From Planctomycetia bacterium (lineage in GTDB: Bacteria > Planctomycetota > Brocadiia > Brocadiales > Brocadiaceae): 64,000 nucleotides of DNA. The notes beneath the pieces are model-generated. The model did not search any database. It saw only the letters and a list, made by a program, of their open reading frames with translations, and was not told the origin of the DNA. Location: contig JABTVC010000002.1 in the NCBI GenBank assembly GCA_015075005.1, positions 434,001-498,000 on the forward strand, read 5' to 3'. Position 1 is the stretch's first letter. Each line of letters starts with the position of its first letter. Below, one piece after another: positions 51,790 to 61,770 of the stretch. The position numbers and the translations under genes are program-made.

Positions 51790-54700
51790 ATGGTTTTATT
51801 CAGATCTATTAAAAACAGGCTCGTCCTGATACTTTTGCTCTGTTCATTTCTGCCATTGTTGTTGTTGCGTTTTGTGGCGTTTCCCAAGGCGCAAATGGAT
51901 TTGGAAGAAGCTTTAATACGAAATCTGGAGGGCGTGAAGCAAAAACAGGCAGAAATTGTAAAGATGTGGTTTAATGAAAGGCGGCATGACGCAAAGGTTG
52001 TCAGCAGGAATATCTCTGGCTTAATGGAGCGTAGTGTGGATGATAAGCTTAAGGGTTACCCAAGATTGTACGATTATATTGATATGGTCAGGACAGAATA
52101 TGGATATAAAACGGTATATATAATTTCATGCGATGGAACGGTGCTTGTGGCCACAGAACGGCAACTGACAGGGTCCAATATGCTGAGTTACGATTATTGC
52201 AGAGAGGGGTTAAATGGAAGTATTTGTATATCAGAGATTCAATGTCTTGATCAGGGTGAAGGTAAGAGCAAGAAGAGCGATAGTGACGGCCCGATGATGC
52301 ATATATCTGCCCCACTCATTGATTCTGATAATCGTACGATAGGGGCTGTCGTTCTCAAGGTAAATACCTTGCCCCTCAGCGAGATTATGAAGAGTACAAA
52401 ACTGGGAAAAACCGGGGAAACTTTTCTTATCAACCGGGAGGGCTTTATGCTGACGGAGTCACGGTTTGCCGATGAGATGAGAAAGGCCGGGTTGATTCAG
52501 CAAAGGACAGCACTGGTGTTAAAGGTGATAAATCCACATACAGGAAAGCTTACTGTTGGGGCACAAAAATGTCTGAGCGGCAAGGATGGTTACGATTCAG
52601 ATGGCTACAAGAATTACGACGGCAGGAAGGTCCTGGGTGCGTGGTGCTGGATTTCTGAGCATGACTGCGGTTTGCTTGCACAGATTGCTATCCAGGAAGG
52701 GTATGGGGCGGCATACAGTTTGAAAAATTTCGTTCTTTCAATGTTGCTGGTATTGGCCTTTCCTTTAGCATTGGCTGCATTCTATTTTGGGAAACGAATT
52801 TCCGCACCCATTTTAAATATAACAGAGGTAACGAGAAAGATTACCGGCGGCGACCTGGGGCAACGAGTGAATGACAGTGGTAAAAAAGATGAAATTAGCG
52901 AACTGGCGCAGGCGTTCAACGTTATGGCTGAATCCCTGGAGGAAAAAACGGTTGCCTTGAGAAATTATACGGCCGATTTAGAGAATATTGTTAAAGAGAG
53001 AACCCTTAAACTCCAGGAAATGACGAATTTTTTACATAGTATTTTGGCGGGTTCTACGGAATATTCGATCATTGCAGAAGATTTGAATGGCAATATCCTC
53101 GCATTTAATAAGGGGGCAAGCCTGATCTATGGCTACCGGCAAGAAGAGGTGACTGGCGTGGCGAATGTACGGATACTGCATACCGAGGAAGATGTAAAAT
53201 CGGGGAAGGTCGATCGTATTTTAGAGTTGGCGCGCAAAACGGGTCGATATGAGGGAGAAGTAACAAGAAAGAAGAAGAGTGGCGAAATCTTTCCCGTTCA
53301 TGTTACGTTTACCTTGCGACGCGACGAAAAAGGACAACCCATTGGTTTTGTGGTGATCTCCAAAGACATCACAGAAGAGAAATTAGTGACACTCGAAAAA
53401 GAGATTGTAAATAATATCAACAAGATTATTGCATCTGGTCTTGACATTAAAGAAGTGTACAAGAATATTTATCACGAATTGAAACGCAGAATTGACTTTA
53501 CCTGGTTAGGTGTGGCATGTCTCATCGATGGGACAGAAATTGCTGAAGATTCTCATATTGTTGATGGGGTATTGTTATCCACTGATTGGTTACATTGCTA
53601 CCGGTCTCTCTTGCATGAAACGGCACAGAATGTCTCTGTTAAAAAGGGTGTTCCCGTTTTTGTTATGGATACCCATAAAGGAGGTTATCAGTTTGACCGG
53701 CAATTACATGAGAAGGGCATACGTTCTTATATCTGCTTTCCCTTGAAATCGAAAGGAATTACCATTGGAACTATAACACTCGGGAGTCGGCAGAAAGATG
53801 CTTTTGCCGATGCGCATTTTGGATTGTTAAATCAAATCATTCCTCAACTGGCCATTGCTATTGAGAATGCGAGGCTTTTTATGTCAATAAGGGAATCGGA
53901 AAAAAAATATCGGGATCTCGTGGAAAATGCCCCGGAAATGATTCACGAGATCAGTCTTAAAGGAAATTTTATTAATGTAAACAAGACAGAATTATATAAA
54001 TTAGGCTATTCCCTCGAAGAAATGAGGCGAATGATGCTTGAAGACATCGTGCCAGGCGGATATCGGGAGGAAATAAAGAGACATATTAAACGGATTAAAG
54101 AAACCGGATGCAGTGAGCTGGAAACCGTGTTTCTGACAAAGGCAGGAAAGGAAATCAACGTCGAGATTAACGGAACAGGTCTTTGTAATGTCAAAACGGG
54201 GGAATGTGTTTGTGTGAGGGCGTTTGTGAGGGACATCACAGAAAGAAAAAGGATGGAGGAGCAAGTGCGGCGGTCTGAAAAATTGGCCTCGATGGGTGAG
54301 CTCGCTGCTGCGATTGCGCATGAGATTCGAAATCCCCTGGGCGCAATATGCAATTCCGTGGGTATTTTGGACGCCCATCTGAAATTAACAGGTCAGGACA
54401 AAGATTTATTGGAAATGATTGTAGATCAGTCCGAAAGGTTAGACAGGATTATCAGTAATTTTTTGACTTTTGCACATCCCCGGGAGCCTTCCTTTTCTTT
54501 GCAGGATATCCGGGAGGTGATTAAAAATACCCTCTTTCTGCTGGAACAGGATAGCCGTTTTACCGATCAGGTAGAGCTGAAAGAGGTATACGAGAGTATA
54601 TTGCCGAAAGTTTACATTGATACAGATCTTATTCACCAGGTGTTATGGAACCTATTGATAAATTCCCTCGAAGCAATGCCTCATGGCGGACAAATTAAGG

Positions 54701-54987
54701 TAATGGTAAGAAAAACCAATCTTTTTTTACGAGACGCTGTGGAAATAGTGATATCAGATTCGGGATTAGGTATACCAGATCACGAACTGTACAAGATATT
54801 TGAACCTTTTTATACGACAAAAACAGAAGGAACGGGATTGGGTCTCTCGGTAGTTCAGCGTATTATTGATGACCATGGGGGGACAATTGATGCTAAAAGC
54901 AAAAAAGACAAAGGTGTGGCCTTTTATATTAAGCTCCCTGTCGGGAATGAGAAATTAGCAATCCAGGATAATCTTTTCGTGGGATAA
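51790..54987 (+). CDS. Multidomain sensor histidine kinase (dCache-HAMP-PAS-GAF-PAS-HisKA-HATPase)
   Basis: The 1065-residue kinase has membrane helices near 10-30 and 315-338 enclosing a double-Cache sensor. A HAMP domain follows (339-392), then PAS (about 412-530), GAF (540-690) and PAS (700-825). The phospho-acceptor is in LAAAIAHEIRNPLGA and the ATPase motifs are NLLINSLEA, DSGLGIP and GTGLGLSVVQRI. It starts 6 bases after the radical SAM gene and precedes its regulator by 10 bases. The Cache region resembles that of the 57400 protein closely, so they share a ligand type. The ligand is unknown. Confidence 0.92.
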   Translation: MVLFRSIKNRLVLILLLCSFLPLLLLRFVAFPKAQMDLEEALIRNLEGVKQKQAEIVKMWFNERRHDAKVVSRNISGLMERSVDDKLKGYPRLYDYIDMVRTEYGYKTVYIISCDGTVLVATERQLTGSNMLSYDYCREGLNGSICISEIQCLDQGEGKSKKSDSDGPMMHISAPLIDSDNRTIGAVVLKVNTLPLSEIMKSTKLGKTGETFLINREGFMLTESRFADEMRKAGLIQQRTALVLKVINPHTGKLTVGAQKCLSGKDGYDSDGYKNYDGRKVLGAWCWISEHDCGLLAQIAIQEGYGAAYSLKNFVLSMLLVLAFPLALAAFYFGKRISAPILNITEVTRKITGGDLGQRVNDSGKKDEISELAQAFNVMAESLEEKTVALRNYTADLENIVKERTLKLQEMTNFLHSILAGSTEYSIIAEDLNGNILAFNKGASLIYGYRQEEVTGVANVRILHTEEDVKSGKVDRILELARKTGRYEGEVTRKKKSGEIFPVHVTFTLRRDEKGQPIGFVVISKDITEEKLVTLEKEIVNNINKIIASGLDIKEVYKNIYHELKRRIDFTWLGVACLIDGTEIAEDSHIVDGVLLSTDWLHCYRSLLHETAQNVSVKKGVPVFVMDTHKGGYQFDRQLHEKGIRSYICFPLKSKGITIGTITLGSRQKDAFADAHFGLLNQIIPQLAIAIENARLFMSIRESEKKYRDLVENAPEMIHEISLKGNFINVNKTELYKLGYSLEEMRRMMLEDIVPGGYREEIKRHIKRIKETGCSELETVFLTKAGKEINVEINGTGLCNVKTGECVCVRAFVRDITERKRMEEQVRRSEKLASMGELAAAIAHEIRNPLGAICNSVGILDAHLKLTGQDKDLLEMIVDQSERLDRIISNFLTFAHPREPSFSLQDIREVIKNTLFLLEQDSRFTDQVELKEVYESILPKVYIDTDLIHQVLWNLLINSLEAMPHGGQIKVMVRKTNLFLRDAVEIVISDSGLGIPDHELYKIFEPFYTTKTEGTGLGLSVVQRIIDDHGGTIDAKSKKDKGVAFYIKLPVGNEKLAIQDNLFVG

Positions 54988-54997
54988 TGTAAGAATT

Positions 54998-56404
54998 ATG
55001 GAAAACGGCAAAATACTTGTTGTGGAGGATCAAGACGCCATGAGAGAATCCCTCATGATTGCTTTTAAGGATGAGGGATATCAGGTTGAGGGCGCTGTGA
55101 GTGGCGAAGAAGCCATGCACAAATTCGATAATCAAAATGGGTACGACCTGGTGGTTACAGATTTAAAGATGAAAAAAGTCGATGGTTTGGAGGTGCTCAG
55201 GGCTGTGAAGTCTGCGAATCCATCCGCCGAGGTTGTTCTGATTACGGCGTATGGCACCATTAGTACGGCAGTTCAGGCAATTCGGGATGGGGCATATGAC
55301 TATGTGACCAAACCTTTCCGCCATCAGGAAATCCTGAAAGTTGCAAAAAAGGCGCTTGAAAAAAAAAGCCTGAGAGACAGAGTCAGGTATCTCGAAGGGG
55401 AAATTAGAGATAAATACAGATTTGAAGGCATTGTGGGTAATTCTAATGCCATGCTGGAGGTACTAAAAATAACGTCACATGTATGCCGTACCGAAAGCAC
55501 CGTTCTGATTACAGGGGAGAGTGGAACAGGAAAAGAGCTGATTGCGCGGGCTATCCATTATAATAGTCTTCGAAAAGATGGGCCATTCGTTGTGATTAAT
55601 TGTGGCGCATTGCCTGAAAATTTGCAGGAAAGCGAACTGTTCGGGCACATGAGGGGTGCATTTACCGGGGCCATTAAGGACAAGATTGGGTTGTTCCAGC
55701 AGGCGCAAAAAGGAACGATTTTACTGGATGAAATCGGCGAAACTGCGCAATCTACGCAAGTAAAACTCTTGCGGTTTTTGCAGGATGGTGAGATTCGTCC
55801 GGTTGGTGGGAACAAGACGATATGCGTCGATGCGAGAATCATTGCTGCTACAAATGAAAATCTGGAAAAAGCCGTTGAGTTTGGAAAATTCAGAAAAGAT
55901 CTTTTTTACCGAATTAATGTAATCCGTATTCATCTTCCTCCCTTAAGAGAACGAAGGGAAGATATTCCGCTTTTAGTGGAATATTTTTTGGAAAAGATTT
56001 TGGAAAAGGTAAGGAAGGGAAAACGGGTATTTTCCAAAGAATCGATGAAGGCATTAATGAATTACCATTGGCCTGGCAATATTAGAGAGATTCAGAATGC
56101 AATAGAGAGTGCAGTCACCTTGTCTAAGAACGAGACCATTTCTGCGGAAGAACTTCCGCTTTCTGTGGAGAAATTTTCCGAGTTTAACGAGGATATGCGC
56201 GAAGATCAGAAGAGGAAATCGTTTATTGTGACATCTCTTGCAGAACAGGAAAAGAATGCAATTGTTGAGGCTTTAAATAAATATGGCGGTAATCAAACAA
56301 AGGTTGCTCAGGTACTTGGGATATCCACAACAACCCTTTGGAGGAAGATAAAGAAATACGGGATTAGACCACAACACGAAATTTCAGATAAGGGTGAGAA
56401 ATAA
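54998..56404 (+). CDS. NtrC-family sigma-54-dependent response regulator
   Basis: A receiver domain with VEDQDAM, phospho-Asp in VTDLKMKK and KPF leads to an AAA+ domain with GESGTGKELIARAIH, the sigma-54 contact motif GAFTGA and the Fis-type HTH near the C-terminus (NQTKVAQVLGISTTTLWR). It activates sigma-54 promoters when phosphorylated, presumably by the adjacent kinase. Targets are unknown; no convincing sigma-54 promoter was found in the window. Confidence 0.94.
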   Translation: MENGKILVVEDQDAMRESLMIAFKDEGYQVEGAVSGEEAMHKFDNQNGYDLVVTDLKMKKVDGLEVLRAVKSANPSAEVVLITAYGTISTAVQAIRDGAYDYVTKPFRHQEILKVAKKALEKKSLRDRVRYLEGEIRDKYRFEGIVGNSNAMLEVLKITSHVCRTESTVLITGESGTGKELIARAIHYNSLRKDGPFVVINCGALPENLQESELFGHMRGAFTGAIKDKIGLFQQAQKGTILLDEIGETAQSTQVKLLRFLQDGEIRPVGGNKTICVDARIIAATNENLEKAVEFGKFRKDLFYRINVIRIHLPPLRERREDIPLLVEYFLEKILEKVRKGKRVFSKESMKALMNYHWPGNIREIQNAIESAVTLSKNETISAEELPLSVEKFSEFNEDMREDQKRKSFIVTSLAEQEKNAIVEALNKYGGNQTKVAQVLGISTTTLWRKIKKYGIRPQHEISDKGEK

Positions 56405-56641
56405 TTTCATACTGAAACCACTGTTGCATAATGGAATGTATTCGTGAATGAATAAGCCCCGGTGTGTAATGATATAAAAATACGTTGGTTTTTAATAAGA
56501 TGTTGATTCAGTGCCACTTATGTGAAACATATGTGGCATTTTGTTTTTTGGCTGTGGTTGGTATATCTTTCGTTAAGCTGATATGAGTAATTGGAAAGAG
56601 TTTATTCTGTGCGGTTGCGGAGAGAAAACGGATGCCTGTCG

Positions 56642-57325
56642 ATGTTTAAAAGGAGAAAAGTCGCTGAGGTTAAAAAAGTTATCGATGTTAAGTTTGAGGT
56701 AAAAGAAGATTTTGAGACAGATAAAGAGAGTTTTTCTGCTCGTTTAATAGGAGGTTTTAAAAGGGCTTCTACAGGGGGGAATAGAAAAATGCCGGTATTG
56801 GAAGGGATAAATAAGATTAGTGCGTATGTTAAAAAGTTGCCCAGAGCGCCACAACCCGTACTTACTACAAGGGAGACGTGGCTTTCTCTCTGGGGAACGC
56901 TTCTTGGGATAGGGGTAACGGCGTTGCTGGCCTTTACATGGAAGTGCCCGATGTTATTAGGATCTTTAGGATCTACCGCACCATTGCTTTATTGTGCGTA
57001 TAAGGCGCCCCTGGCACAGCCAAGGAATGTCATGCTGGGGCATTTTCTTGGCGCAAGTATCGGGGTGGTTGTCCATGATTTCTTTGGCGTGACGTGGTGG
57101 TCGCTTGCGCTTGGCGTTTCCCTTGCTGTTGTTCTTATGTTTGTGACGTACTCGATCCATCCCCCTGCGGGCGCTACGGCATATGTAGCTATTCAAACGG
57201 GAGGGTTGGGTGTCGGGTATCTTTTTATGCTGAATCCCACCGTTCTGGGAGTGTTTATCATGCTAGTGATAGCGGTTATCTTTAATAAGGCTACGAAAAG
57301 GGATTATCCAACGCACTGGTGGTAA
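56642..57325 (+). CDS. HPP family membrane protein
   Basis: The transmembrane HPP domain holds SLGSTAPLLYCAY, the family Pro-Pro motif HPPAGATAY and about five helices. Some plant and cyanobacterial HPP proteins are reported nitrite transporters, so nitrite is a candidate substrate here; that is inference. Start is ambiguous: ATG 56642 gives a 49-residue charged head, while ATG 56789 has an AGGGGGGAA site and fits the compact domain. TTG 56591 also opens this frame. It lies between the NtrC gene and a second sensor. Confidence 0.82.
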   Translation: MFKRRKVAEVKKVIDVKFEVKEDFETDKESFSARLIGGFKRASTGGNRKMPVLEGINKISAYVKKLPRAPQPVLTTRETWLSLWGTLLGIGVTALLAFTWKCPMLLGSLGSTAPLLYCAYKAPLAQPRNVMLGHFLGASIGVVVHDFFGVTWWSLALGVSLAVVLMFVTYSIHPPAGATAYVAIQTGGLGVGYLFMLNPTVLGVFIMLVIAVIFNKATKRDYPTHWW

Positions 57326-57399
57326 ACGAGTATCGCAATCGTAAAAGAGTTCCTTGTTCTTGGATTTGGTTGAGCATTTGTTAAATTACGGAGAAAATT

Positions 57400-59688
57400 A
57401 TGTATATCTCGATTAAAAATCGAATTGTTTTTTTGCTGATAGTGTTTACGTTACTGCCATTTGTCTTGTTACGAATTGTTGCTTATCCGAGGATACAGGC
57501 CGACCTTCAGGAGGTACTCATAAGGGACCTCGATGGTATTGGGCATAAACAGGCGGATCTGGTCAATAATTGGGTGCATGAGCGGATAAGGAATGCCCGT
57601 GTAGTTGCAAATAATCCCTTGATGATCAGGAGCACAAAAGTTACAGGGAGTGATAAGGATTACCCTGATATTGTCCAATATTTGGAGGTGGTAAAAAGTG
57701 TGTATGGTTATAAAGGCGTCTTCGTATGTAATGACAGCGGTATGATAACCGTTGGCACCGTTGGAGAGGCCGTGGGAGCCGACGTTTCGCAAATGGATTA
57801 TTTCAAGAAGTCTATAGAGGGGAGTACTTATGCGTCAAATGTGATTCCATCAGAAATCCCGTTAATAAATGAATTCGGAGAGAAAGAATTGGGTTTGCCT
57901 ACCATGTTTGTTTCGGCACCGCTTAAGAGTCGGGACGGGGCTGCGGTAGGTGTTGTTGCCCTTCGGGTAGACGCGAACGCCTTGAACGACTTGATGTTGA
58001 GCCTTAATTTGGGTAAGACAGGAGAAACATATCTCGTAAACAAGGATGGCTTCATGGTTACGGAGTCAAGATTTGCTGCACACCTTAAAGAAATGGGGTT
58101 GGTAAAAAGGAGGTGCGCGCTAAGCCTGAAATTGGTTAATCCGGAAACTGGCGAATTGACCGATGGGGTTAAGCAGTGTGTTGCCGGAGAAAATGGGTTT
58201 GATGCGAAAGGCTATAAAGATTACAGCGGCCTGTTGGTGTTGGGCGTATGGCGTTGGTTGCCAGAGTTTAATTGGGGTGTTATTGCAGAAATCGACAGAG
58301 ATGAAGGGTATGGGCCTGCTTATAATCTTAATTATATTGTGAGTTCTGTGTTGCTGGTGATGGCCTTTCCTATTGTAATAGTTGCGTACTTTATTGGGAG
58401 AAGGACTTCAGTACCGATTCTTAAATTAACTGAAGTGACCAAAAAGATGGCCTCTGGGGATTTGACTCAAAGAGTAGGTATAAAGAGGGAAGATGAGATT
58501 GGCGAATTGGCAAACTCCGTTAATGCAATGGCTAAGTCTTTGGATGAGAAAACAAAACAGGTAGTAGAGTCGGAGAAGCGCTACAGAGGATTGTTTGAAT
58601 CCTTAAAGGAAGGGGTGTATCAATCGGAGCCAGGCGCTGAGGGGGTGTTTACCTTTATTAACAAGGCTGGGGCTGAGATGTTCGGGTACAGTACTCCGGA
58701 AGAGGTAATAGGAACAAAAGTGAAAAACATCTACATAGATCCTGAAGACAGAAGACGTCTCTGTGAGAAACTTGAAAAGGATGGGATATGGAGGGAATTT
58801 GTATCTCTCTGCAAGAAAAAGGGTGGGGAAGCCTTTTATGCAGAACGTACAAGTAGTTTAGTTCGGGATGAGAAGGGAAACCCGGGTGCTATCTATGGGG
58901 TTATAAGAGATATTTCGGAGAGGAAAAAAACAGAACATGCAATTGCCGAATCGGAAAAGAGATATCGATTGTTGTTCGATTCGCTAAAAGACGGCGTTTA
59001 TCAATCTGAGCCAGAGGAGGAAGGTTCCTTTATATGGATTAATAGTGCAGGCGCTGAAATCCTCGGTTATAAATCTCCTGAAGAAGTAATTGGAATGAAA
59101 GTAAAGGATATTTATGTGAATCCGGATGATCGCATACAAATTACTGAAAAACTTTCCAAGGAAGGGGTCTGGAAAGGTTTTGTATCTTTTTGTAAGAGGA
59201 AAAATGGTGAACGTTTTTATATGGAGCGGACGTCCAATCTGGTGTCTGATGAGAATGGGAAGTCTGTCCGTATAGATGGAATATTCAGGGATATTACTGA
59301 ACGGAAGAAATTTGAGGATGAATTACATGAGTCAGAAAGACACCACAGGCAGTTATTGGATTCATTAAAAGAAGGTATATATCAGTGTGAGCCTACTGAA
59401 GAAGGAGTGTTTACCTGGATTAATCAGGCGGGTGCTGAAATACTTGGTTACAATTCTCCGGAAGAAGTTATTGGGACACGGGTAAAAGACGTGTATGTGA
59501 ATCCGGATGATAGAAAGGAGCTCGTTGAAAAATTGGAGAAAGAGGAGGTATGGCGGGATTTTACATCATATTGTAAGAGGAAAAACGGGGAACGGTTTAT
59601 TTCAGAGCGGACATGTAACCTTGTGCGGGATGAAAACGGTAAGTCGATACGGATTGAAGGTGTATTTAGGGATATAACAGAAAGATAA
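57400..59688 (+). CDS. dCache-HAMP sensor with three tandem PAS domains and no kinase
   Basis: The 762-residue protein has membrane helices near 8-28 and 312-333 around a double-Cache domain, a HAMP segment (KMASGDLTQRVGI) and three PAS units of about 120 residues that are near copies (each with GVYQSEP or GIYQCEP and GAEMFGY/GAEILGY). It ends with RDITER and a stop right where a kinase would normally start. It cannot signal by phosphotransfer alone. It is a paralogue of the 51790 kinase in its sensory half. An ACGGAG site precedes ATG 57400. Confidence 0.88.
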   Translation: MYISIKNRIVFLLIVFTLLPFVLLRIVAYPRIQADLQEVLIRDLDGIGHKQADLVNNWVHERIRNARVVANNPLMIRSTKVTGSDKDYPDIVQYLEVVKSVYGYKGVFVCNDSGMITVGTVGEAVGADVSQMDYFKKSIEGSTYASNVIPSEIPLINEFGEKELGLPTMFVSAPLKSRDGAAVGVVALRVDANALNDLMLSLNLGKTGETYLVNKDGFMVTESRFAAHLKEMGLVKRRCALSLKLVNPETGELTDGVKQCVAGENGFDAKGYKDYSGLLVLGVWRWLPEFNWGVIAEIDRDEGYGPAYNLNYIVSSVLLVMAFPIVIVAYFIGRRTSVPILKLTEVTKKMASGDLTQRVGIKREDEIGELANSVNAMAKSLDEKTKQVVESEKRYRGLFESLKEGVYQSEPGAEGVFTFINKAGAEMFGYSTPEEVIGTKVKNIYIDPEDRRRLCEKLEKDGIWREFVSLCKKKGGEAFYAERTSSLVRDEKGNPGAIYGVIRDISERKKTEHAIAESEKRYRLLFDSLKDGVYQSEPEEEGSFIWINSAGAEILGYKSPEEVIGMKVKDIYVNPDDRIQITEKLSKEGVWKGFVSFCKRKNGERFYMERTSNLVSDENGKSVRIDGIFRDITERKKFEDELHESERHHRQLLDSLKEGIYQCEPTEEGVFTWINQAGAEILGYNSPEEVIGTRVKDVYVNPDDRKELVEKLEKEEVWRDFTSYCKRKNGERFISERTCNLVRDENGKSIRIEGVFRDITER

Positions 59689-59740
59689 AGGGTATATTTT
59701 AAAAAGAATTCAAATACACTGAAATTTAGGAGTGGAAATT

Positions 59741-60274
59741 ATGGGAAATGGCGATGTAAAGGGTTTATCGGTAAATGCAAAGACCCTTATTATGATATTG
59801 TTGTTTGTAAATGTTGGATTTGCGTCCAAGATGATAAATAAATACTATGCTATGAAGGAAGCGGGATACATTAGGGAAAAGACATTTCATGGCCAACTCG
59901 AGAAAAGGGTAATGAAGGCCTTTGGTTCTATGGAAGAGTTGAACAAGATGGTTGATGACATTACGCGACAAAAGGCGGACGCAGAAAAGATGGCGGATTC
60001 TTTTAAGGTGCAAGGTGAACAATTGAAGAATGTGAATAAAAACCTTGAGGATGCAAAGGCAAAGCTGGAGGAGGAGAAGGCGCGGTTACAAAAACAAATA
60101 TGGGAATTAGAAGACTCGCTGTCGCTTGCAAAGAAGACGTTGAACAATAAAGATTTAGCTATTCAAGAACTCATGAATAATGCTGAAATACTTGAAAAGG
60201 AAAGGGATGTACTGAAAAAACAAGTTGAAGAGACTTTGAAGTCACCAGGGGCGTGGAGTATCCCCAAGCAGTAA
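59741..60274 (+). CDS. Membrane-anchored coiled-coil protein
   Basis: One hydrophobic helix near residues 12-28 is followed by a long heptad-rich region (about 60-165) with many Lys, Glu and Leu. No enzymatic domain is visible. AGGAG at 59728-59732 supports ATG 59741 rather than the GTG at 59732. It lies between the kinase-less sensor and the degenerate receiver, where it may act as a scaffold or coupling protein; that is inference. Confidence 0.7.
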   Translation: MGNGDVKGLSVNAKTLIMILLFVNVGFASKMINKYYAMKEAGYIREKTFHGQLEKRVMKAFGSMEELNKMVDDITRQKADAEKMADSFKVQGEQLKNVNKNLEDAKAKLEEEKARLQKQIWELEDSLSLAKKTLNNKDLAIQELMNNAEILEKERDVLKKQVEETLKSPGAWSIPKQ

Positions 60275-60304
60275 ACCTTGTATGTAATATGTGTGAAAGA
60301 TTTT

Positions 60305-60730
60305 ATGGCACGGATTTTAATTGTAGAAGAGCAGGTGAAGGTATGCAGGTCATTGGTGAGTATCTTAGAGAAAGAGGGTTTGGGAACATGTGACGGAATA
60401 GGATGGGAGGGTGTGGCGCAGGTATGTGGGGAAAATGTCTATGACCTTATCATTGCCGATTTAGATGTAAAGCCTTCTCTGGGTTATGAAATACTAAAGA
60501 AGATTAATTTTTCCAGTTTGAATACTGAAATTGTGGTAATCGCCAATCCGAATACGTATGATACTGCTCGAATGAATAGCTATGGGGTGTATGATTGTAT
60601 AATGAGACCATTCAGGTTGAAAGAGATAGTTGATATGGTAAAGAAGGCGCTAGAGAAAAAAAAGTTGGTTGATAAGGTTCGCAATTTGGAGCAAATTATG
60701 GATATGAATAAAATAACTTTTAAAAAATAA
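60305..60730 (+). CDS. Degenerate receiver-domain protein
   Basis: A single receiver-like domain begins ARILIVEEQVKVCRSLV. The phospho-acceptor Asp is still present in IIADLDVKP, but the conserved Thr position is replaced (VVIANPN) and the conserved Lys is Arg (MRPFRL). Its tail, ALEKKKLVDKVRNLE, closely matches the linker of the NtrC-type regulator at 54998 (ALEKKSLRDRVRYLE). It is probably a truncated paralogue that lost AAA+ and HTH domains. The upstream TTG 60278 frame start is less likely than ATG 60305. Confidence 0.82.
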   Translation: MARILIVEEQVKVCRSLVSILEKEGLGTCDGIGWEGVAQVCGENVYDLIIADLDVKPSLGYEILKKINFSSLNTEIVVIANPNTYDTARMNSYGVYDCIMRPFRLKEIVDMVKKALEKKKLVDKVRNLEQIMDMNKITFKK

Positions 60731-60879
60731 GGGAAGGAGGTGTTATTAAAATAAGTATAGAAAAGTATATGGGATGTTAGATGTTGGAAGTGTTTATTCG
60801 GGAGTATGGGTGTAATAAAAATAAAAGGGGTGTTGTTTTGAGATAATATTCACAACAACATTTTAGAGGAGAACAATTA

Positions 60880-61770
60880 ATGTTATATACTGCAAACGTA
60901 GATGCAATTGCTGCGGTGTCTTTAAAGAAAGCCACTGCAATGAAGCACAGCCTGACGGGCTTTTTGACACTTTCTGTGATGGCTGGTTTTTTTATTGGAT
61001 TCGGTGTTCTCATGATGGTTATTTGTGCTGCGCCTATTGCAGCGCTAAATCCTGGAATCGGTAAAATAGTTGGAGGTGCAGCATTTGGTGTTGCATTGGT
61101 ATTTGTAGTTATCGGTGGAGCTGAGTTGTTTACCGGATATAACCTCCTGATGTTGAAGGGAACACTTAGGGGTACGGTACCGCTTGGCGATTGCCTGGTG
61201 GGTTGGTTTTGGACATACTTAGGCAACTTGGGCGGGTCGATGATTTTTGCGCTTTTAATTTATATGGCTGGAGTATTTGCCCCTGATCCATGGCATACCT
61301 TTCTGAACAAGGTGGCAACCTACAAGATGAATGCGCCATGGTGGGAACTATTCTTCAGAGGTATCTTTTGTAACTGGCTTGTCTGTCTGGGAATATGGTG
61401 CGCTTTTAGAGTCACAAGTGATACGGCCAAGATAATTATGTGTTGGTGGGTTTTATTCATTTTCGTTACAACGGGCATGGAGCACAGTATAGCGAATATG
61501 ACGTTTTTAACGATTGCGAATTTATTACCTCATGACCCGGCAGTGATTTCATGGGGCAAGATGTTTGGCCACAACCTTGTCCCTGTTACCCTTGGCAACA
61601 TGGTGGGTGGTGGCTTTTTTGTTGCATTCCTCTATTGGTTTGCAAGTGCCATGGATGAACGAGGAGCCAGGACGATGGATGCTTTGAAAGGGGGTTCTGG
61701 AAGTGCAGGTCTTCCTCGGGCTGGTGGGTCACCTGAAGAGATTAGAGATATTAAGGTGAAGATGAAATAG
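60880..61770 (+). CDS. focA: Formate/nitrite transporter family channel (FocA/NirC)
   Basis: The 296-residue protein has six membrane helices with the FNT features: GAAFGVALVFVVIGGAELFT, then FRGIFCNWLVCLGIWCA and EHSIANM. FNT channels carry formate, nitrite or hydrosulfide. In an anammox organism nitrite uptake is the likely role, but the substrate cannot be read from sequence. AGAGGAG precedes ATG 60880. The C-terminal tail (about 40 residues) is longer than usual. A strong terminator follows. Confidence 0.92.
   Translation: MLYTANVDAIAAVSLKKATAMKHSLTGFLTLSVMAGFFIGFGVLMMVICAAPIAALNPGIGKIVGGAAFGVALVFVVIGGAELFTGYNLLMLKGTLRGTVPLGDCLVGWFWTYLGNLGGSMIFALLIYMAGVFAPDPWHTFLNKVATYKMNAPWWELFFRGIFCNWLVCLGIWCAFRVTSDTAKIIMCWWVLFIFVTTGMEHSIANMTFLTIANLLPHDPAVISWGKMFGHNLVPVTLGNMVGGGFFVAFLYWFASAMDERGARTMDALKGGSGSAGLPRAGGSPEEIRDIKVKMK

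Follow-up and report, generated by a model that had tools for sequence, protein, structure and literature searches.

The window analysed in this work is a stretch of 64,000 nucleotides from a Planctomycetia bacterium of the Brocadiaceae (GenBank assembly GCA_015075005.1, contig JABTVC010000002.1, positions 434,001 to 498,000). It carries, on its forward strand, a block in which signalling genes alternate with genes of putative nitrite transporters, and we concentrate here on a small receiver of this block, R2, and on its relation to the regulator N encoded upstream. The block begins with K (51790..54987), a sensor histidine kinase of 1065 residues with the Pfam architecture dCache_1-HAMP-PAS-GAF-PAS-HisKA-HATPase. 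It is followed by N (54998..56404), an NtrC-type sigma-54 activator of 468 residues in which Pfam and NCBIfam recognize REC, Sigma54_activat and HTH_8, i.e. a receiver, an AAA+ domain and a Fis-type helix-turn-helix. After a dyad TGCCAC...GTGGCA with a T-run (56512..56549), which may be the terminator of K-N and/or an operator, and a conserved sigma-54-like element TTGGTATATCTTTCGT (56558..56573; GG at -24, CGT at -12) described by the pattern TTGGTAYRTNTTTCGT, come HPP (56642..57325), a TM_HPP putative nitrite transporter of 227 residues (PF04982), and S (57400..59688), a kinase-less sensor with the Pfam architecture dCache_1-HAMP-PAS-PAS-PAS that has no output domain and stops directly after the 'FRDITER' of its third PAS. 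CC (59741..60274), delineated from its sequence and orthologues, is a coiled-coil membrane protein of 177 residues with an N-terminal membrane helix. R2 (60305..60730, ATG at 60305) is, from Pfam and a structural model, a stand-alone degenerate receiver of 141 residues extended by an NtrC-type linker helix. The last member is FNT (60880..61770), a FocA/NirC-family formate/nitrite channel of 296 residues (PF01226), whose leader includes a strong Shine-Dalgarno-like sequence GGGAAGGAGGTG (60731..60742) that is apparent from the sequence and from aligned leaders. The start of HPP was chosen from 227-residue orthologues, the open reading frame caller placing it at 56591, and that of CC was taken from orthologues, the search queries beginning at 59735. 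K, N, S and R2 lie where an earlier, sequence-only reading had put them; HPP, CC and FNT (from 56642, 59741 and 60880) are members that this reading left unnamed.

The same reading regarded K-N and S-R2 as a duplicated two-component pair of which the second copy has lost its output. The homology behind this view is sound, as alignments of the fronts and of the receivers uphold the paralogy of the paired domains: K and S have a common Cache-HAMP front (43% identity over residues 2-385, E 8e-107), and N and R2 a common receiver and linker (38% identity over residues 3-130, E 5e-19), both matches standing well above the chance level. The missing domains were also correctly noticed. By Pfam, S has neither HisKA nor HATPase and is thus no histidine kinase, and R2, lacking both an AAA+ and a DNA-binding domain, is no NtrC-type response regulator, a description that fits N with its receiver, sigma-54 AAA+ and DNA-binding domains. 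However, the second pair does not hold together as such. The S clade is found in two families and R2 in part of one; in domain trees, S forms a clade apart from K, so that S and R2 do not branch with K and N at one age as local duplicates would.

The history of S was followed in loci fetched from 33 genomes of the window's family (f1; own genome included), from another family of the same order (f4) and from other families of the order. Within its own genome, the front closest to that of S belongs to another kinase-less sensor (contig C1, position 600860; 71% identity, against 43% for K), and K has the nearest kinase front. Across the order, the best-scoring kinase fronts are those of f4 kinases of 819-828 residues, ahead of K, whose orthologues are present in f1 and whose front is matched outside f1 at no more than 44% among the matches listed. 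A first Cache-HAMP tree was built from 107 fronts, K' (the kinase of a second K-N-like pair presented below) being left out with a match of less than 300 residues. It contains an S clade that unites 62 f1 and f4 rows (Shimodaira-Hasegawa-like approximate likelihood ratio test, SH-aLRT, 99) and a K clade of 27 rows from f1 (SH-aLRT 100), which are adjacent apart from a long-branch group. In a second tree of 100 rows, with K' added and 8 long or off-family rows removed, the S and K clades hold 61 (99) and 27 rows (100), respectively. Cache PF02743 is present in 62/62 S-clade proteins, HAMP in 59/62 and PAS_9 in 58, and no kinase domain was detected in the 62 among 25 of the 27 Pfam families listed. 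Because this kinase-less clade includes both f1 and f4, S was, as these trees read, already kinase-less before the two families split. The trees, the Pfam content of the S clade and the scores of the f4 kinases lead us to reject S as a recent copy of K stripped of its kinase.

S has the make-up of a dCache sensor front, i.e. a dCache fold and a HAMP domain, and its model, which is of moderate confidence (predicted local distance difference test, pLDDT, 74), matches dCache structures. A sequence search for a Cache relative with a known ligand gave only matches at E 0.13 and 0.28. The best-kept part of S is its third PAS (59320-59688), which is 87-96% identical to the window in the f1 loci where S is unsplit; the last PAS of split copies reaches 77-79%. 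Such a split, which leaves the Cache and membrane part in one gene and two PAS in another, is seen in loci L082, L136 and L137 (genus code g11, Kuenenia-type genomes) and in L121 (genome G018). The second S-type protein of the own genome (C1:601-609 kb; L075 10861-18854), with 71% identity to the S front and two PAS, has downstream of it a gene with a protein-kinase domain, those of two ABC ATPases and that of a molybdopterin oxidoreductase. Besides, a separate family of ~470-residue Cache proteins with no PAS or kinase match occurs in L077, L078, L100, L133 and L138, with a small gene bearing a weak PAS match after it in four of the five loci. K of G026 (L117 263-3461) is read as two frames, which may be a sequencing error.

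The search in other genomes of the order, which the sequence-only reading had advised, showed that the gene order K-N-HPP-S-CC-R2-FNT recurs across f1. In full, the f1 order is argG - rSAM (radical SAM) - K - N - HPP - S - CC - R2 - FNT - opposite-strand PQQ-repeat gene, the first of which we take to be argG, and it is only partial at contig ends or where the block has been broken up. R2 is present in 28 of the 33 f1 genomes and adjoins CC in all 28, FNT being in view in 27. The search of 26 further relatives found no R2; their matches at E <=1e-12 fall on frames of at least 454 residues. The f1 genomes without R2 (G012, G018, G020, G025 and G028) all carry HPP, S, CC and FNT; tblastn with the 28 R2 sequences against these five loci returned the receiver of N in three and nothing in two. 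L082, L120 and L121 lack R2 although they have S, CC, K and N. Second copies of HPP-S-CC-FNT exist in G004 and G009, with a partly covered one in G003, and no R2 match stands beside their CC, a weak receiver match lying ~8 kb off in G004. As for f4, 10 of the 13 loci fetched carry HPP-S-CC, 8 of these with FNT in view, and no orthologue of K, N or R2 was found in the ten; two f4 loci (L122 and L127) have less closely related sensor or receiver genes nearby. Its absence from f4, from five f1 genomes and from the CC neighbourhood of the second copies leads us to reject R2 as a part of the ancient module. CC itself was found in 45/59 genomes. Its orthologue bears a PAS in six of the ten f4 loci, 60-66% identical to a PAS of the window S, and such identities indicate that PAS domains have been transferred between S and CC, linking these proteins to each other. 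No relative of CC was found in viral contigs, and Rfam gave no match on the block at gathering scores.

In a receiver tree, R2 forms one clade (100/100) inside a clade of R2, N and N' (99/97) as opposed to the other receivers of its own genome, N' being the regulator of the second pair; a G034 row counted as N' landed outside. Within this group, the joining of R2 and N is weak (95/60), and trees forced to unite R2 with N' or N with N' without R2 gave p 0.229 and p 0.224, respectively. The best match to R2 in its own genome is N (38%), followed by N' (35%). On this phylogeny, R2 descends from N/N'-type receivers. Its presence requires two changes on a tree of five joined domains, where a single clade is not rejected (approximately unbiased test, 0.399). 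Because the S clade spans two families and R2 only part of one, the halves of the supposed pair differ in age, R2 being by its distribution younger than S. The pair K'-N' is located in the own genome at C1:158-164 kb (L076 8084-14354), next to MoaA- and MoaC-type genes. K' includes Cache, HAMP, PAS and GAF domains and a HisKA part 54% identical to that of K, and N' (C1:161380) resembles N at 57% in the receiver and 62% in the AAA+ domain. The start of K' looks frameshifted or interrupted, its first Cache part being encoded in a short frame of its own that contains a TGA.

R2 is recognized as a Response_reg fold (PF00072, E 1.4e-11) and misses at least one of the five phosphotransfer residues, which makes it a candidate pseudo-receiver. 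Its window copy has E8 and E9 and keeps D52, but the switch Thr is replaced by Ala80 and the Lys by Arg101, and the impaired chemistry claimed by the sequence-only reading thus shows in the residues of this protein. Across the 28 orthologues, aligned with 27 N sequences, loss of the Thr is general. The switch Thr/Ser is kept in a single R2 and gone in 27, the residue after it being mostly larger than Ala/Gly. By contrast, the phospho-Asp is kept in 25 (absent in 3), the first acidic residue in 26, and a D or E at the second acidic position in 23 (non-acidic in 5/28); since the Lys is kept in 27/28, Arg101 of the window is the exception. The best-kept segment of R2 is its linker, whose mean identity is 0.89 among R2, 0.87 among N and 0.68 between R2 and N. 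Beta-5 also reaches 0.68 between R2 and N, the other six segments ranging from 0.17 to 0.37 with alpha-5 the lowest. In the same vein, 10 of the 20 columns invariant in the 28 R2 sequences fall in the linker (114-128) and three in beta-5 and its end (Y96, D97 and P102). The AlphaFold model of R2 (pLDDT 87.3) consists of a receiver in which alpha-5 and the linker form one rod-like helix (105-140). Its best structural matches are receivers; NtrC1 4l4u, aligned over nearly the whole length (TM-score by query, TMq, 0.80), is among the highest of the 50 matches listed, with 1ny5 at 0.75 and some non-NtrC receivers at 0.79-0.80.

The R2 frame has at least 134 residues in 28/28 genomes. Its ratio of nonsynonymous to synonymous substitution rates (dN/dS) lies between 0.11 and 0.34 for 14 of the 15 close pairs, which are not independent of each other, compared to 0.03-0.24 for S and 0.01-0.10 for N. 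As estimated from these pairs, R2 is mostly under purifying selection. Intact frames, purifying selection and new invariant residues lead us to reject a pseudogene.

Upstream of HPP, the element TTGGTAYRTNTTTCGT occurs without mismatch in 31 of the 32 f1 genomes covering the stretch and with a single mismatch in G010; G031, whose contig ends, is outside this count. Since the pattern was derived from the same loci where it was counted, the count measures conservation and is not an independent prediction. The distance from the element to the called HPP start varies, this start preceding the element in two loci. Sigma-54 promoters have a GG at -24 and a GC at -12 at a fixed spacing, and the GG, the -12 G and the spacing of the element fit this consensus; its -12 box, however, reads CGT. 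The element is exact also in R2-less genomes, and versions with one or two mismatches stand ahead of the second copies in G009 and G004. The own genome has one copy of rpoN and one exact element, the one before HPP; with up to two mismatches, the element is found 64 times versus 66 for the reversed pattern, which is the chance level, and therefore no wider regulon is named. From the element and the gene order, N likely drives HPP-S-CC-R2 from this candidate promoter. The dyad at 56512..56549 has a fold z of -1.82, 11 of 200 shuffles being as good, and recurs with paired changes in most of the relatives shown; together with its T-run, it may end the K-N transcript. Further downstream, GGGAAGGAGGTG precedes FNT by ~140 bases, and no gene is evident after it. 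Among the aligned FNT leaders, the core AAGG(A/G)GG is found in 35/37 and GAAAGG(A/G)GGTG in 29, whether R2 is present or not; the two leaders without the core are those of a split-FNT fragment (L085) and a second FNT gene (L086). The motif is reminiscent of the STAB-SD element of cry mRNA. FNT of G007 (L085 13691-14579) is read as two frames, possibly through a sequencing error.

The explanation that we favour, although tentatively, is that R2 acts as a feedback brake on N by direct contact, within a block that would control nitrite transport and consist of three layers differing in age. The ancient layer would consist of S and CC, which accompany HPP and FNT in two families, whether or not a two-component system is nearby, and would sense alongside the transporters. 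In a second layer, K-N usually adjoins this module in f1, and the sigma-54-like element suggests that N activates HPP-S-CC-R2, presumably as one transcript, and perhaps FNT. R2, the youngest layer, would have been copied from the N/N' lineage, losing the Thr switch and keeping the NtrC-type dimer helix. It would bind N, either in mixed dimers or by docking its receiver and linker on the AAA+ domain of N, with a damping effect: once the operon is on, R2 would accumulate and N be damped, phosphorylation of R2 not being needed. The phosphorylation-independent role proposed in the sequence-only reading thus stays plausible for R2 as an interaction partner, but not as the output component of a decayed pair. 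A step further, R2 would be a bacterial 'microProtein', i.e. a natural receiver-plus-linker gene that arose from an NtrC-family activator lineage, came to lie in the transporter block beside this activator and, by binding its dimer helix or AAA+ domain, exerts phosphorylation-independent negative feedback on nitrite transport in anammox bacteria, an idea that is possible but on which we are somewhat more doubtful.

Several observations weigh against the brake. Alpha-4 of R2 is short by one residue in 28/28 sequences and alpha-5 proper has diverged (R2-N identity 0.17), which may spoil the canonical dimer face. Residues conserved in R2 and not in N, C29 (28/28), G31 (27/27) and W34 (25/28), are placed at beta-2/alpha-2 and hint at another partner. 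The linker of N' resembles that of N, and the partner of R2 could be N' instead of N. In almost all pairs compared, R2 changes faster than its neighbours in the block; its dN/dS is 0.53 between the window and G003, and the window copy has lost the Lys, so that selection looks relaxed in the window lineage, and another contig of G005 bears an additional, partial match to R2 interrupted by two stops. At the promoter level, the -12 box of the element is CGT instead of the GC of sigma-54 promoters, a strict sigma-54 scan demanding this GC found nothing consistent before HPP or FNT, and the element is present in G025, G028 and G021 though HPP-S-CC is not beside K-N. Finally, Kuenenia-type genomes have the element and no R2, and their focA is nitrite-regulated according to the literature. 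R2 is not needed for nitrite regulation itself and therefore would modulate, not create, this control.

Among the other explanations, the one we keep most seriously in mind, while regarding it as unlikely, makes R2 an adaptor of S-CC or of the transporters that docks, via its new surface and helix, on the coiled coil of CC or on the third PAS of S. It is retained because of the new conserved residues at beta-2/alpha-2, which N lacks, and it would agree with the position of R2 next to CC in 28/28 genomes and with the last PAS of unsplit f1 copies being kept at 87-96%, above the rest of S; on the other hand, S-CC does without R2 in f4, in five f1 genomes and in the second copies, and the best-kept part of R2 is the stretch common with N. 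Less probable again is that R2 is still phosphorylated by K and serves as a phosphate sink or as a competitor for K. The retention of the Asp (25/28), the Lys (27/28) and the first acidic residue (26/28) could be explained in this way, but hardly the loss of Thr/Ser in 27/28 with a mostly larger residue than Ala/Gly behind it, nor the three orthologues devoid of Asp.

Two further alternatives place the emphasis on S, and both are improbable. As a kinase-less subunit, S might tune K directly in mixed Cache-HAMP dimers, a proposal drawn from their homologous front (43%) and neighbouring genes; yet S accompanies CC and the transporters where no K orthologue was matched, and in Kuenenia-type genomes and in G018 its PAS part is encoded by a separate gene. 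Slightly less credible still is the local duplication of K-N advocated by the sequence-only reading, with a copy stripped of its kinase, AAA+ and DNA-binding parts that now buffers the signal. Both fronts and both receivers are homologous, K has the own-genome kinase front nearest to S, and the K and S clades are adjacent apart from a long-branch group; but the trees already contradict it, with an S clade in two families and no kinase domain there among 25 of the 27 families listed, f4 kinases outscoring K against S, another K-N-like pair elsewhere in the genome, and R2 missing in L082, L120 and L121 where S, CC, K and N are present. Lastly, we give hardly any credit to R2 as a decaying leftover: its rank as the fastest evolving gene of the block, the lost Lys and the dN/dS of 0.53 in the window lineage and the partial second match with stops in G005 point that way, against a frame of at least 134 residues in 28/28, purifying selection in 14/15 pairs and new invariant residues.

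The block matters because nitrite is a substrate of anammox; it offers a sensor and a regulator together with a promoter-like element and a candidate brake. No account of the regulators of anammox nitrite transporters was found in the literature searched, and titles and abstracts yielded no prior report of the sensor, CC or R2 of this block, most subscription papers being beyond that search. By gene content and numbering, kuste3051-3055 / KSMBR1_1075-1070 of Kuenenia stuttgartiensis is the same transporter block (PMC7438415), and the gap between kuste3051 and kuste3055 fits HPP, two S parts, CC and FNT as in L137. In that species, focA_2 (kuste3055) and HPP (kuste3051) are up when nitrite is limiting, and the article quotes from another study a 36-fold drop of kuste3055 in the absence of nitrite (PMC7438415). 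Unlike the window, the Kuenenia-type genomes examined (G020, G025 and G028) have a split S and no R2.

The closest parallel to the proposed brake is a construct of LuxO. LuxO receiver plus linker inhibits the LuxO AAA+ domain in trans, and more weakly without the linker, and unphosphorylated NtrC1 is an inactive dimer in which alpha-5 and the linker form one long helix (PMC4878744). The construct, a receiver with a linker of ~20 residues (residues 1-146; PMC4878744), has the same make-up as R2; it is laboratory-made whereas R2 is a separate natural gene, and N may follow either LuxO or NtrC1 regulation. R2 also resembles the pseudo-receivers (PsR) or atypical response regulators, which have the receiver fold without key phosphotransfer residues, and of which, in the review of Bourret et al. 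2025, the switching is termed a mystery and action via protein contacts is one proposed class (PMC12632262). The same source offers a parallel in CmrT, which stands beside an otherwise normal CmrS-CmrR system (PMC12632262); unlike PsR, R2 has no output domain, carries an NtrC linker helix and has mostly kept the D and K while losing the Thr. R2 may represent a minimal pseudo-receiver, of which only the receiver and a conserved linker are left. In the BldM-WhiI heterodimer, an atypical response regulator pairs with a related one, as proposed for R2, but this heterodimer controls promoters of its own and R2 has no DNA-binding domain (PMC4125116). The microProteins of plants and animals (PMC4807768), to which R2 may be compared, are eukaryotic. 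Each part of the block is of a known kind; what is new is the arrangement, a natural stand-alone receiver plus linker that lies beside an activator of its parent type, inside a transporter block.

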